Shown: piece after piece, positions 375-30,371 of the stretch | Layout of the letters: each line of letters begins with the position of its first letter | How positions within the stretch are numbered: position 1 is the stretch's first letter | Origin: an uncultured Erysipelotrichaceae bacterium | GTDB taxonomy: Bacteria; Bacillota_I; Bacilli_A; RFN20; CAG-826 | Reading direction: 5' to 3' | Assembly (NCBI GenBank): GCA_902797855.1 | Contig: CADBUI010000011.1 | Location: 1-33,931 of the forward strand | Length of the DNA stretch: 33,931 nucleotides | The notes under the pieces: generated by a model | What the model was told of the DNA's origin: nothing | Seen by the model: only the letters and a program-made list of their open reading frames with translations | The model's database searches: none | Translations under genes and position numbers: made by a program

Positions 375-440
375 ATGGCTAGTTCAAAAGATTACTTGCT
401 ATATGTTCTCGAATTATTAAGATATTTATTTTTCATTTAA
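375..440 (+). pseudogene. 5' remnant of a TfoX/Sxy N-terminal-domain gene
   Basis: A GGAG Shine-Dalgarno (364-367) precedes an ATG at 375 that opens MASSKDYLLYVLELL. This matches the conserved beginning of Firmicutes TfoX N-terminal-domain proteins, which start MASSK-Y-(2)-VLEQL and continue for about 100 residues. Here the similarity stops after about 16 codons (near base 422), a few unrelated codons follow and TAA comes at 438. The tail overlaps the 3' end of the convergent acyltransferase gene. The rest of the domain is absent from this strand, so I read it as a truncation left by a deletion or rearrangement. The match is from memory of the family, over a short stretch. Confidence 0.6.
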
Positions 441-1661
441 GAGTTTATATATCTCTTCAGTTGCAAGTGATATTTTTGTAACCGAGAATTTTTCGCATTC
501 TGGATAGACATATAGCGTGTCTTCAAGAGTGTTTAAATCAACGCAGTCTCCATATTTACCTAAGTATTCATATTCAATATGTACACTATAAGTGTCTTTA
601 GAAGGTATATCTAAATGATAGTGTTCATCATTCTCTTTATAATATCCTTCTAAATGGAAGCCATCTTTATCATGGATTAGTTTACCTTGTCCAAGGTGAA
701 TAAATTTATCTGCATTAGGTAAAGCATCAATGTGCACAATACTTTCAAAATAGTATTTACCATCTTTAACTTCTTTACGAACATTTCCTCTTTCCCATTC
801 ATACCAATCTGGAATATGAGAAAATTCGGTTTCTCCTTTTAGAGCTTTAAGTTCACCTAAAGTAGAATATTCCCATTTCTTTCCACAGTGCTTGCAAAAT
901 AAGATATTATCTTTCGAATCCATCTCGTATTCGGTGTGGCAGTGTGGACATTGATATAAGACTTTATGTAATCCTTCCGCACGGCCTTTATATTTAACCT
1001 CAACACCTTTTTCTTTTTGCCACTTATATTCGTCATAAACATAAGCTTCTTGGATTCTTCTATCTACTTCTTCCAAAGGAAGATTGTTAACTTCATCAGC
1101 GTTCATTAAACATTTAAGTTCAGCTTCAATTCCTTTAATTTTGCGGTTGTGTAGATTCCAAAATGGAGAGTTAATGTGGTGACCACTCATCTTAAGCATC
1201 ACAACTGGAATTTTTAAAAATTTCGCTAGTTTTGCAACTGATTGAGGAATGATAGCGGTGGTGCCACATAAGGAGTATCTAGCTTCAGCGAATATCTCAA
1301 CAATATCGCCATGATTTTTAACTGTTCTAAGGTGTCTAATAAGATTTAGATCGTTCGTAAATTTTCTTTTACAAATTCCTCCAACATTTCTTAAAAGTTT
1401 CTCTCTACCAATAAATCCATCGATAGCAATAACATAGTTAATTCGATGAGGGAATGTTGCTAGATTAAGGATATCAACATCCATTAAGGCATTGTGATTA
1501 GCGAGTAAAAGATATGGAGGTTTAATCCCCTTCATATTCACTTTTGTAATCTTACCTCTATGTGACCATAAGACAGGAAGTGCTTTTAAATAACCTATAA
1601 AACGTAACTTCTGTCTTTTAGGTGCCTTCATCATGTCAAAGCGATGTATGTTATCAAGCAT
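426..1661 (-). CDS. PlsC-like acyltransferase with C-terminal zinc ribbon
   Basis: This 411-residue protein has an acyltransferase core: an H-x4-D motif (H56, D61, in NHNALMD) and, about 70 residues later, IFAEARYS in the place of the EGTRS-type substrate motif. These are hallmarks of the 1-acyl-glycerol-3-phosphate acyltransferase family, which esterifies lysophospholipids at the inner membrane face. After the core comes a four-cysteine zinc ribbon (C238, C241, C256, C259) and about 150 further residues rich in charged and aromatic residues, so it is much longer than classic PlsC (about 240). The exact acyl acceptor is unknown. The start is leaderless in appearance: an extended -10 box ends 6 nt before the ATG and there is no Shine-Dalgarno. 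A second in-frame ATG pair at codons 10-11 also lacks one. Confidence 0.8.
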   Translation of the reverse strand: MLDNIHRFDMMKAPKRQKLRFIGYLKALPVLWSHRGKITKVNMKGIKPPYLLLANHNALMDVDILNLATFPHRINYVIAIDGFIGREKLLRNVGGICKRKFTNDLNLIRHLRTVKNHGDIVEIFAEARYSLCGTTAIIPQSVAKLAKFLKIPVVMLKMSGHHINSPFWNLHNRKIKGIEAELKCLMNADEVNNLPLEEVDRRIQEAYVYDEYKWQKEKGVEVKYKGRAEGLHKVLYQCPHCHTEYEMDSKDNILFCKHCGKKWEYSTLGELKALKGETEFSHIPDWYEWERGNVRKEVKDGKYYFESIVHIDALPNADKFIHLGQGKLIHDKDGFHLEGYYKENDEHYHLDIPSKDTYSVHIEYEYLGKYGDCVDLNTLEDTLYVYPECEKFSVTKISLATEEIYKLLNEK

Positions 1662-2263: not shown

Positions 2264-3310
2264 TTATTCATTAATAAAATTAACGATTGAATCCATAAGT
2301 TGATAATTTAATAAATTAGTCCATTTCTCTTTATTCACTAGAATATTGAACAAATGTTTCTTATCTTCAAAAGATAGATTCTTATTTTCTTTCGTGTATT
2401 TTTTATATTGTTTAACGATACTTTCGTAATATTCTTTTCCTTCTAGTGAATCATAGACAGTTCCATGTCCTCTATCTTTAAACTTCTTATAGATGATTCG
2501 TTTGTTATTACCGAATTCTTTTTTATATAGATCAAGTCCTATTTCTATTGGGACTGTTTTATCATCTTCAGAATGAACTATAAAAACTTCTGTATTCGAA
2601 TTTTTTATTCCATCAATAACACTTAATGAAGGATATCCACCGAATCTAAATTCTTCATATTCATCGATATATTCAATCGTGTTATCGACTTTTTCTCCCG
2701 CCCACTCTAGACCATGTTGTCTAACGATAGTAGTGCTCTTATTAAATCCAGACATCATAATGGCCTTAGAGATATTTGGGAATAAGTTTAAAGAGCATCC
2801 AATAGAGTAAGCACCCCAGGAATGCCCCATTAAAATAATGTCTTTATCTTTATATTTTTTAGAAGATTTAACAAAGTTAATCACACTTTCTAAATCAATT
2901 ATTCCTTGTGGAAATCCATATATCCCATCTCCACTTGACTCATCAAAACTAGTCGCGTCATAACTAAAGACGTATAGTCCTTGGCTTGCTAAATAGTTAA
3001 TGATATCTAAATACCTACGATGTCCATTTCCATATCCATGAACAAAAATAACAATCTTTGATGCATCGTATTCTTTATAGTGATAGAAATAACCAACAAG
3101 GTCATTATTTATAGACTTAAAAGTAACTCTCTCTTTAATTAAATTAGGAAATAAATCTAAATCAAAAGATGATGTGTTCCCACTATAAGTGTGGTGGTAG
3201 AAAAACTTTTTATAGGCAACATCAGTCGCGATATATGGAGAAGCATTTATTAGTGTTCTTCCCACAAACTTACCGACATCAGTTAGGATTTTCTTTTTCT
3301 TTTCGTCCAT
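2264..3310 (-). CDS. Alpha/beta hydrolase (serine esterase/peptidase-like)
   Basis: This 348-residue protein has the full alpha/beta-hydrolase set: an oxyanion strand ending HGYGNGHRRY (residue 91 on), the nucleophile elbow GHSWGAYS with Ser164, an acid in HSEDDKTVP (Asp250) and a histidine in RGHGTVYD (His282). The layout resembles the YqkD/BAAT-like hydrolases that act on esters or acyl groups; the substrate is unknown. A weakly hydrophobic N-terminus (residues 15-38) could be a membrane-associating helix but there is no clear signal peptide. The gene is a single-gene unit divergent from the 3373 operon, with TTGAAA-18-TAAAAT ending 6 nt before the ATG and no Shine-Dalgarno, which suggests a leaderless mRNA. 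Confidence 0.88.
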   Translation of the reverse strand: MDEKKKKILTDVGKFVGRTLINASPYIATDVAYKKFFYHHTYSGNTSSFDLDLFPNLIKERVTFKSINNDLVGYFYHYKEYDASKIVIFVHGYGNGHRRYLDIINYLASQGLYVFSYDATSFDESSGDGIYGFPQGIIDLESVINFVKSSKKYKDKDIILMGHSWGAYSIGCSLNLFPNISKAIMMSGFNKSTTIVRQHGLEWAGEKVDNTIEYIDEYEEFRFGGYPSLSVIDGIKNSNTEVFIVHSEDDKTVPIEIGLDLYKKEFGNNKRIIYKKFKDRGHGTVYDSLEGKEYYESIVKQYKKYTKENKNLSFEDKKHLFNILVNKEKWTNLLNYQLMDSIVNFINE

Positions 3311-16747: not shown

Positions 16748-16781
16748 AATATCGCATTTTTTTATTTATATGGAGGATTGT

Positions 16782-17273
16782 ATGGCAAATTTACAATCAC
16801 ACGCTAAGGAACAAATTAAAGAGATTGTTGAACGTTATAAAGACGAAGAAACACCTCTTATGATGATCCTTGAAGCAATTCAATCTGAATATGGTTATAT
16901 TCCATTAGAAGTTCAAGAATATGTTAGCTCCTTAACTGGTATTCCAGTTGCAGAAATCTATGGAGTTGTTACTTTCTATTCTTTCTTCTCACTTAAACCA
17001 AAAGGAAAATATGTTATTGGTGTTTGCCTTGGCACAGCTTGCTATGTTAAAGGCTCCCAAACAGTTATGGACAAATTCAGTGAAATCCTTGGTATTGGTC
17101 CAGGAGAAACCACTGATGATGGTTTATTTACATTAGATGCACTTCGTTGCATTGGTGCATGTGGTATTGCACCAGCTATTTCCGTTAACGGAAAAGTCTA
17201 TCCTAAGATGACTCCTAATAAAGTTGTTAGTGTCATCAAAGAATATCATGACTTAGAAGGAGGTGCTAACTAA
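16782..17273 (+). CDS. hydC: NuoE-like [2Fe-2S] subunit of NAD-linked [FeFe] hydrogenase
   Basis: A 163-residue thioredoxin-like [2Fe-2S] protein of the NuoE / HydC / HndA family. The four ligands are C82 and C87 (VCLGTACY) and C123 and C127 (RCIGACGIAPA). It passes electrons between the NuoF-like flavoprotein and the hydrogenase. I place the start at 16782, because GGAGG (16772-16776) sits 5 nt before it; the in-frame ATG at 16770 contains the first bases of that ribosome site and would leave none of its own. First gene of a three-gene operon; its stop overlaps the next start (TAATG). Confidence 0.92.
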   Translation: MANLQSHAKEQIKEIVERYKDEETPLMMILEAIQSEYGYIPLEVQEYVSSLTGIPVAEIYGVVTFYSFFSLKPKGKYVIGVCLGTACYVKGSQTVMDKFSEILGIGPGETTDDGLFTLDALRCIGACGIAPAISVNGKVYPKMTPNKVVSVIKEYHDLEGGAN

Positions 17274-24396: not shown

Positions 24397-24447
24397 TTCA
24401 TTAAGAACTAATATCGTGTATACTATAAACATATGGAGGTATCCATT

Positions 24448-25308
24448 ATGAAAAATAAGTTTGTTTTACTATTAATTAGTGCAATCGCCTTAGTTAGTGG
24501 TTGTAACGGTAATGATAATATTATTCGCGGACCAAGTGATCCAAATGAAGATAGTGGTGAAGTTGAAAATCCACATCTTGTTAGAGGTATCACAATCACA
24601 AAATTAAAAGAAGTCGTTGATGAAGCTTCTAAATCCATTTTTGATATCACTTCTTATAAAACTGTAAAAAGCGCAACCAGAAATAAATTTGATCCAGAAA
24701 CACATGAGCCACTTCTTGATCATAATTATTCTCTTTCTGGAGAAGGAAAACTATATTCAAATTCAGTATTGGTGGATGAATTTAGTGCTCCTGATCAAGA
24801 AAGCTATGATTTATATTTCTATGATAGTCCTGCTCGCACTAAAGGATATTTCTACATTGATGATTCATTTACTGAAATTAAACTTAGATACGCTAGCGCT
24901 AGTGATGGTAAAGTTAAGGAAGTAAAACATCGCGATTATTCTCCAGTTAATTATGAAGAAGTCTTTTATCCATCACACTTAAAAGAAATATCAACTGTCG
25001 ATTTAGAAACTATTTCTCTCGCAGGATACTTAAATGATGGTAGAGTAGTCTTCCAAGTTGTTCAAAAATACGAAAGTTCACACACCGAGTATGGCGTTAC
25101 ATACGATGTTGAAACAATTATTTATATTAACTATCTTTTTAAAGATAACAAATGTGATGAATATCAAACCAGAAGTAAAGCAACCTATACCGTTCATGAT
25201 GATCCAACAAAAAGCTATGTTATGACCGAGGCACTTAATGGTGAGACCTACGCTTATATCGATAATGGTGAATTTGATAAAACTACATTACCAGGACTTA
25301 GTGAATAA
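24448..25308 (+). CDS. Lipoprotein of unknown function
   Basis: A 286-residue protein with a lipoprotein signal peptide: MKNKFVLLLISAIALVSGC, lipobox VSGC with the modified cysteine at residue 19. The mature part begins with an acidic, polar linker and continues as an apparent beta-rich domain with no motif I recognise. The start at 24448 has GGAGG (24435-24439) 8 nt upstream; the earlier in-frame ATG at 24433 overlaps that ribosome site. A possible -10, TATACT, is at 24419-24424. It leads a three-gene unit with cardiolipin synthase and an epimerase, 2 nt before the next start. It resembles the 291-residue lipoprotein at 27945 in size and style, but I could not align them convincingly. Confidence 0.85.
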   Translation: MKNKFVLLLISAIALVSGCNGNDNIIRGPSDPNEDSGEVENPHLVRGITITKLKEVVDEASKSIFDITSYKTVKSATRNKFDPETHEPLLDHNYSLSGEGKLYSNSVLVDEFSAPDQESYDLYFYDSPARTKGYFYIDDSFTEIKLRYASASDGKVKEVKHRDYSPVNYEEVFYPSHLKEISTVDLETISLAGYLNDGRVVFQVVQKYESSHTEYGVTYDVETIIYINYLFKDNKCDEYQTRSKATYTVHDDPTKSYVMTEALNGETYAYIDNGEFDKTTLPGLSE

Positions 25309-28863: not shown

Positions 28864-28928
28864 CATTTATTGAATTAGACATTTATTTAAAAAGCTGTAT
28901 CATATAAATATGATTGAGGTATCAGATA

Positions 28929-29483
28929 GTGAAATATTTTGATGTCACAAGTAAACAAAAGAAAACCACAATTATTTTCCTAATTTTACTAGTGCTATTT
29001 TCCTTTGCTTTAATTGGTGTACATTTTTTACCATTTTTCACGAATGTTAATTCTCAGACACTTCAAAACTTACTAGAAGTTACAGGAGTGGAAGCATCAT
29101 TTGGTAAACCAGGAATGTATGCATCTAGTAGAGTTAATCCAAATATTTTCCTAATGATTGGAAGTTCATTAGGAGTGCTTGGTTCACTCTTATTACTTGT
29201 GTTTACAATTTGGTTTATTGCCTCTAAAAAATATAATCGCTTCATGTTTTTTATGTTTGCGTTGACCACTCCATGTTATGCAATCTTAGTTGCAACTGAA
29301 TTTTTTATCATTCCTTTATATAAAACATCCAATGTTACTGGCTTTGCAGATATGCAGTACATTCATTATTGGTACTATGTATCTTTAATTGGTTCAATTG
29401 CTATATTTTTAACAATATTTATCACTATTGTTGTCATTGCGTTGCAAGGAGATAAATCCACCATCTCAGTGGAGTCAAATTAG
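28929..29483 (+). CDS. Four-helix membrane protein of unknown function
   Basis: A 184-residue protein with four likely membrane helices: about residues 12-37 (TIIFLILLVLFSFALIGVHF), 72-98, 103-128 and 146-172. A loop of about 35 residues lies between helices 1 and 2. No enzyme or transporter motif. I start it at GTG 28929, because GAGGT (28916-28920) lies 8 nt upstream; the longer TTG-started frame at 28914 would begin inside that ribosome site. A possible -10 TATAAA is at 28903-28908. The gene stands alone between the lipoprotein and the nuclease pair. The nearest relatives could be the membrane-integrated DUF families of gut Firmicutes; I do not name one. Confidence 0.75.
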   Translation: MKYFDVTSKQKKTTIIFLILLVLFSFALIGVHFLPFFTNVNSQTLQNLLEVTGVEASFGKPGMYASSRVNPNIFLMIGSSLGVLGSLLLLVFTIWFIASKKYNRFMFFMFALTTPCYAILVATEFFIIPLYKTSNVTGFADMQYIHYWYYVSLIGSIAIFLTIFITIVVIALQGDKSTISVESN

Positions 29484-29490
29484 GGTAAAG

Positions 29491-29519
29491 TTGCAATTAT
29501 CAAATTATATTTATATAAT
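29491..29519 (+). promoter_or_regulatory. Promoter of the nuclease operon, leaderless geometry
   Basis: TTGCAA (29491-29496), exactly 17 nt, TATAAT (29514-29519), then 6 nt (CGTAGT) to the ATG at 29526. This is the clearest full promoter in the window and puts the transcription start on the start codon. Confidence 0.8.
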
Positions 29520-29525
29520 CGTAGT

Positions 29526-30371
29526 ATGAAAATGAATATTAAACATTTTACAAAAATAGGCTTGTTGCTCACCTCTTTATGTGCATTTCTTTCTGGTTGT
29601 AGTAATTCGGATTATTATGCCTCTATATCTAATGACCTTAGAGGGGATGAACTAAAAGAGGCGTTAAGCGAACTCATCTACCACGAAAAGGCAATTAACT
29701 ATGCGAATGTTTCGTCTTATTATACAAAGACTGATTCTGCTGGTGCACCAAATAAGATTAAACTTTTCTATAACGGACAAGTCGTGTCCACAAAAATGAC
29801 TGATCCTGATTATATGCCTTATACATCAGATGATGATGATCCAAATGGCATCAACCGTGAACACGTCTGGTGTCAATCTCGTTTTAGAATCTATGGTTCT
29901 ATGACTGATCCAGCTCATTATGGTAAAGCTGAAAACCCAGGTCCTGCTACTGATTTATATAACGTTAGACCATGCTTAGGTTCAATTAACCAAGCAAGAA
30001 GCAATTATATTTATAGTGAATCTCATACTTCTCAAACATTTGATCCAGCCGTTATTGAAGGCGGAGAAGAAGCTTCAAGAGGTGAAATCGCTAGAATATT
30101 ATTCTATTGTGCAACTAGATATCTAAAACTTGAACTAGTTGAAGATGATAGTGTCCCTTATAGTGGACGTTCAAATAAGATGGGTAATCTAGATTATCTA
30201 CTTAAATGGAATTTAGCCTACGCACCAAGCGATTTAGAAAAACAAAGAAATGATGCGATTCAAGAAATTCAAGGTAACCGTAATCCATTCGTCGATCACC
30301 CTGAATATGCTTGCCGCATTTATGGTAATAAATCAAACGCAACTAAAGAAATTTGTAAGGAGTATTTATAA
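29526..30371 (+). CDS. Endonuclease-I-family surface lipoprotein
   Basis: A 281-residue lipoprotein nuclease. The signal peptide ends in lipobox LSGC with the cysteine at residue 25. The endonuclease I (EndA/Vvn) fold is shown by NREHVW with Glu112 and His113 (metal ligand and general base) and DLYNVRPCLGSINQARSN, in which Asn155 fits the second metal ligand. GNRNPFVDHPEYA is the family's C-terminal signature. It should cut DNA or RNA outside the cell without strict sequence preference. It has no Shine-Dalgarno and its promoter places the RNA 5' end at the ATG. Its stop overlaps the start of a second nuclease gene (TAATG). Confidence 0.92.
   Translation: MKMNIKHFTKIGLLLTSLCAFLSGCSNSDYYASISNDLRGDELKEALSELIYHEKAINYANVSSYYTKTDSAGAPNKIKLFYNGQVVSTKMTDPDYMPYTSDDDDPNGINREHVWCQSRFRIYGSMTDPAHYGKAENPGPATDLYNVRPCLGSINQARSNYIYSESHTSQTFDPAVIEGGEEASRGEIARILFYCATRYLKLELVEDDSVPYSGRSNKMGNLDYLLKWNLAYAPSDLEKQRNDAIQEIQGNRNPFVDHPEYACRIYGNKSNATKEICKEYL

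Follow-up and report, generated by a model that had tools for sequence, protein, structure and literature searches.

A survey that included 209 Firmicutes genomes reported leaderless genes in 56 of them (mean 4.2%), mostly within Lactobacillales and Mycoplasma, and noted that a Shine-Dalgarno (SD) site is usually required by distal genes, whereas proximal ones may do without a leader (Zheng et al. 2011, PMC3160421). In Deinococcus-Thermus, -10 regions adjoining the open reading frame (ORF) have been demonstrated experimentally (PMC12340547), and the GeneMarkS-2 survey, in the summary given by PMC9581028, predicts leaderless transcription in 21.6% of bacterial species. Our literature search for leaderless starts in metagenome-assembled genomes of Bacilli found none. 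Leaderless mRNAs differ from leadered ones in their response to some antibiotics and to the balance of initiation factors, and gene finders tuned to SD sites place starts wrongly in genomes rich in them. With these systems we compare a nuclease gene pair located in a window (the whole stretch of DNA analysed; 33,931 nucleotides) from an uncultured Erysipelotrichaceae bacterium (Table 1).

By direct reading of the sequence, the first nuclease gene is preceded by TTGCAA-17-TATAAT-CGTAGT-ATG, with the same bases as in the initial annotation. The description of this promoter as near-consensus suits its -10 box and its spacing better than its -35 element, the two hexamers together scoring 10/12. 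As 6 nt separate the -10 box from +1 in the standard sigma-70 geometry, the predicted transcription start is the A of the ATG. When the 60 nt upstream were shuffled 20,000 times with their dinucleotide content preserved, an exact TATAAT at the observed spacing arose at a frequency of 0.0038, and a promoter that scored 10/12 or better and ended 6-9 nt before the ATG at a frequency of 0.0015. The promoter was also held to be the strongest in the window; it does have the top score, although it shares it with that of gene 2264-3310 (-), which reads TTGAAA-18-TAAAAT-6-ATG (10/12) and likewise lacks an SD. Gene 426-1661 (-), like 2264-3310 (-), has TAAAAT or TATAAT exactly 6 nt 5' of its ATG and no SD.

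Table 1. Features of the nuclease locus (positions within the window)
Feature	Position	Strand	Details
Membrane-protein-like ORF	28929-29483	+	GTG start, GAGGT upstream of it
-35 element TTGCAA	29491-29496	+	read from sequence; 4/6 to TTGACA
-10 element TATAAT	29514-29519	+	6/6; spacer to -35 of 17 bp
CGTAGT between -10 and ATG	29520-29525	+	read from sequence
Predicted transcription start (A of ATG)	29526	+	inferred from standard sigma-70 geometry
Endonuclease I family lipoprotein, 281 aa, predicted leaderless	29526-30371	+	PF04231 E=7.1e-30; lipobox LSGC; no SD
SD AAGGAG of second nuclease	30356-30361	+	in 3' end of first gene; SD score 6
Second endonuclease I family lipoprotein, 289 aa	30371-31240	+	PF04231 E=9.8e-27; ISGC motif

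No SD was found before the first nuclease ATG (SD score 0). The TAA at 29517 closes the frame, thus making ATG 29526 the earliest possible one; a second in-frame candidate lies 6 nt downstream (ATG 29532). The lipoprotein signal is encoded from 29526 and the orthologues have similar N-termini, ATG 29532 being a possible start as well. The downstream partner has, as initially annotated, a normal SD (9 nt upstream of its ATG), and its start shares 1 nt with the stop of the first gene. Both proteins score above the curated PF04231 cut-off of 25 bits (104.9 and 94.6 bits for the first and second nuclease, respectively). The relatives of the nuclease retrieved in a genome scan reached 47-48% at best and carried the labels uncultured bacterium, Bacillales or Erysipelotrichales. 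Endonuclease I-like matches number 8 in the same genome, 2-11 per genus member and 0-3 in the other families of the order, and some of them are located in open frames that span 700-1,800 codons.

The wider use of such starts was assessed in the window and 36 further stretches of the genome (L001-L036), which together cover 635 kb of 1.10 Mb (about 58%). ORFs were called with a simple codon model, taking as start the 5'-most ATG that did not run deep into a neighbour, and were classed as internal (same strand, gap of at most 25 nt), mid (26-100 nt) or first (divergent, or more than 100 nt); first and mid genes were pooled as leading or separated genes (hereafter leading genes). The gene caller lacked the ORF upstream of the nucleases, so that the first nuclease was classed as first (705 nt), and by hand as mid, the pooled counts being unaffected. 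The -10 criterion was a TATAAT-like hexamer (at least 5/6, with T1, A2 and T6 fixed) ending 6-9 nt before the ATG, and leaderless here denotes a predicted +1 located 0-3 nt from the AUG. AT-rich DNA makes TATAAT-like hexamers common, which the shuffles allow for.

A -10 box at this distance was present in 52 of 238 leading genes, as compared with 15.3±3.8 in shuffles, while internal genes showed no excess (5 of 203 versus 6 expected). The distribution has a sharp edge: 1, 1 and 2 genes had the box at 3, 4 and 5 nt, and 17, 14, 11 and 10 genes at 6, 7, 8 and 9 nt. Full promoters (at least 10/12) at leaderless spacing preceded 19 leading genes (0.75 expected) and no internal ones, and genes picked on the -10 box alone also had a -35-like TTnAAA at a 17-bp spacer. 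The counts support a predicted leaderless-type class in this genome that is confined to leading genes, and its excess (about 16% of these genes, or roughly one in six) makes the predicted leaderless start a minority mode. In three conserved candidates the -10 box truly adjoins the correct start, given that the alignments with solved relatives begin at residue 1 for Obg (L023:15853-17124) and Spx (L016:8095-8517), and are in register from residue 5 for RuvA (L023:17970-18524).

The use of SD was unequal between the two classes, SD-like sites (at least 4 nt) being found in 46% of leading and 74% of internal genes (13% and 21% in the respective shuffles); restricted to strictly first genes, the contrast was 83/175 versus 150/203 (Fisher p=1.7e-7). 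The initial annotation had envisaged leaderless starts for first genes and SD sites inside operons, which stands as a tendency but not as a rule, considering that nearly half of the leading genes have an SD. Genes with a -10 box 16-22 nt upstream had an SD in 62% of cases and those with the box at 6-9 nt had none, an absence partly forced because SD and -10 would overlap. With respect to the anti-SD sequence, no 16S rRNA gene was found in this genome, and the only full-length 16S locus of the genus (L246) stops before the anti-SD tail.

Two short leaders in the window have an SD adjoining an upstream AUG: at 24433-24450 and 16770-16784 an ATGGAGG is followed, 12-15 nt past its ATG, by a likelier ATG start, and at 24433 the first ATG has a TATACT 8 nt 5' of it. 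Just ahead of the nuclease locus (28876-28942), TAGACA-16-TATCAT is followed after 6 nt by ATG 28910, which opens a 10-codon ORF overlapping the GTG start at 28929; this element is possibly a leaderless mini-ORF or a very short AUG-initial SD leader.

The geometry recurs in orthologues. Among five related nuclease pairs (L038, L039, L127, L040 and L128), the first gene lacks an SD and abuts a promoter in four, two of which (L038 and L039) are nearly identical and hardly count as separate observations; every one of the five pairs has an SD before its second gene. The promoters read TTGAAA-17-TATACT-8-ATG in L038 and L039, TATAAT-6-ATG in L127 (taking the second ATG as start) and GATAAT-6-ATG in L040. 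In L128 the first gene follows a leader that contains an SD-like GGAAAG and has no promoter-abutting start, which indicates that the geometry can be dispensed with. Within the genus, TATAAT-like boxes also stand 6-7 nt before several further members of the nuclease family (L043, the second gene of L048, L062 and L066).

In the pooled genus members (G001-G018 and G020-G023) a -10 box at 6-9 nt preceded 33 of 226 genes (12.2 expected), as opposed to 24 of 328 (20.9 expected, no clear excess) in the pool drawn from the order's other families, where -10 boxes were commonest 16-30 nt upstream, as with ordinary leaders. The contrast between the genus (including the present genome) and these families (p=5.8e-6) is not caused by base composition, the AT content being higher in the latter. 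A member of the same family but of a different genus (G024, L227-L232), from which few genes were sampled, had no leaderless excess (2 of 34). Its SD use was low in both classes (35% of leading and 24% of internal genes).

We consider it probable that the first nuclease is leaderless, starting from its promoter-abutting ATG, with the second gene led by its SD, and that this is a minority mode in the genome. A housekeeping-type promoter (sigma-70/sigma-A) would start transcription on, or within about 1 nt of, the first nuclease ATG; the activity of this promoter and the 5' end of the mRNA are predicted here from sequence. The ribosome would then engage the 5'-terminal AUG without SD pairing, a step that we infer from the general knowledge of leaderless mRNAs, and the second nuclease would be initiated on the same mRNA via its own AAGGAG. 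The organism would apply the leaderless mode to the minority of operon-leading genes estimated above.

The position of the nuclease within its operon is less clear than was initially annotated. The membrane-protein-like ORF lies on the same strand and stops 42 nt before the nuclease ATG, and a search for a terminator between the two found none; hence, the first nuclease may not be the first gene of its operon, its promoter may be internal to a longer transcription unit, and transcripts running on from the upstream ORF could carry the nuclease with a leader but no SD. Taken further, the same arrangement would make the nucleases chiefly distal members of an operon that this ORF heads, with the TATAAT incidental or a weak internal promoter and the first nuclease translated without SD through an unstructured AT-rich start, through S1 or through coupling across the 42 nt. 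Such a reading would agree with L127 and L128, where the pair is likewise preceded by a weak homologue of the membrane-protein-like ORF. We nevertheless regard it as unlikely, for the full promoter stands at the exact leaderless spacing, where shuffles rarely place one, and recurs in orthologues, and closely placed operon genes mostly have an SD.

It is still less probable that the elements are a chance likeness in AT-rich intergenic DNA, inactive at such spacing. Each half of the window does contain many promoter-like matches, which overall do not exceed the shuffles, but chance would account neither for the positional excess across the genome (of -10 boxes and of full promoters), restricted to leading genes, nor for the return of the geometry in orthologues. 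We also considered, and rejected as hardly credible, that the box before the ATG is an AT-rich translation-initiation signal and no promoter: S1 binding may, in some phyla, underlie the AT-rich upstream bias of genes that lack an SD (PMC5397173), yet here the box is accompanied by the -35-like element 17 bp upstream, sets in sharply at 6 nt and is not in excess before internal genes.

For the present nuclease gene by itself, a leaderless start is nothing out of the ordinary. At a larger scale, leaderless initiation may have expanded within a single genus of AT-rich, Bacilli-like bacteria with small genomes, or disappeared from its sister families, by a recent switch that took in a sizeable minority of operon-leading genes, core ones (obg, spx and ruvA) among them, and left distal genes SD-led; we find the arguments for and against this scenario evenly balanced. 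A genus that bears the trait beside families that do not would offer a way to study the spread or loss of leaderless initiation, and, if the switch was recent, closely related families could be compared.

Set against the described systems, both nucleases match the profile of the Endonuclease I family (PF04231; solved member PDB 1oup), from which they differ by forming a tandem pair with lipoprotein signals and by their highly diverged sequence (the nuclease protein P0001 matches 1oup weakly). The mixed style of initiation had been called not widely described in AT-rich Firmicutes; it is uncommon there, but a combined leaderless and SD style is already on record (PMC3160421). The pattern is thus of a known kind, and its novelty may lie in where it occurs, namely in an uncultured genus and not in the sister families sampled. 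The mixed genomes of the GeneMarkS-2 survey (summarised in PMC9581028) resemble the present one in combining leaderless and SD-led genes. With the TA-led genes (PMC3160421) the present ones share the -10 box at leaderless distance, the SD-less leading genes, the distal SD and the TAtAAT form typical of low-GC genomes; the Firmicutes cases there belong mostly to Lactobacillales and Mycoplasma, and those described here to an uncultured small-genome Bacillota-like group. Deinococcus-Thermus (PMC12340547) is another phylum, in which about one third of genes are of this kind, as compared with the excess of about 16% of leading genes obtained here by a strict count; in both, a -10 box directly 5' of the ORF, sometimes with a -35 element, drives (here, by prediction) leaderless mRNA.
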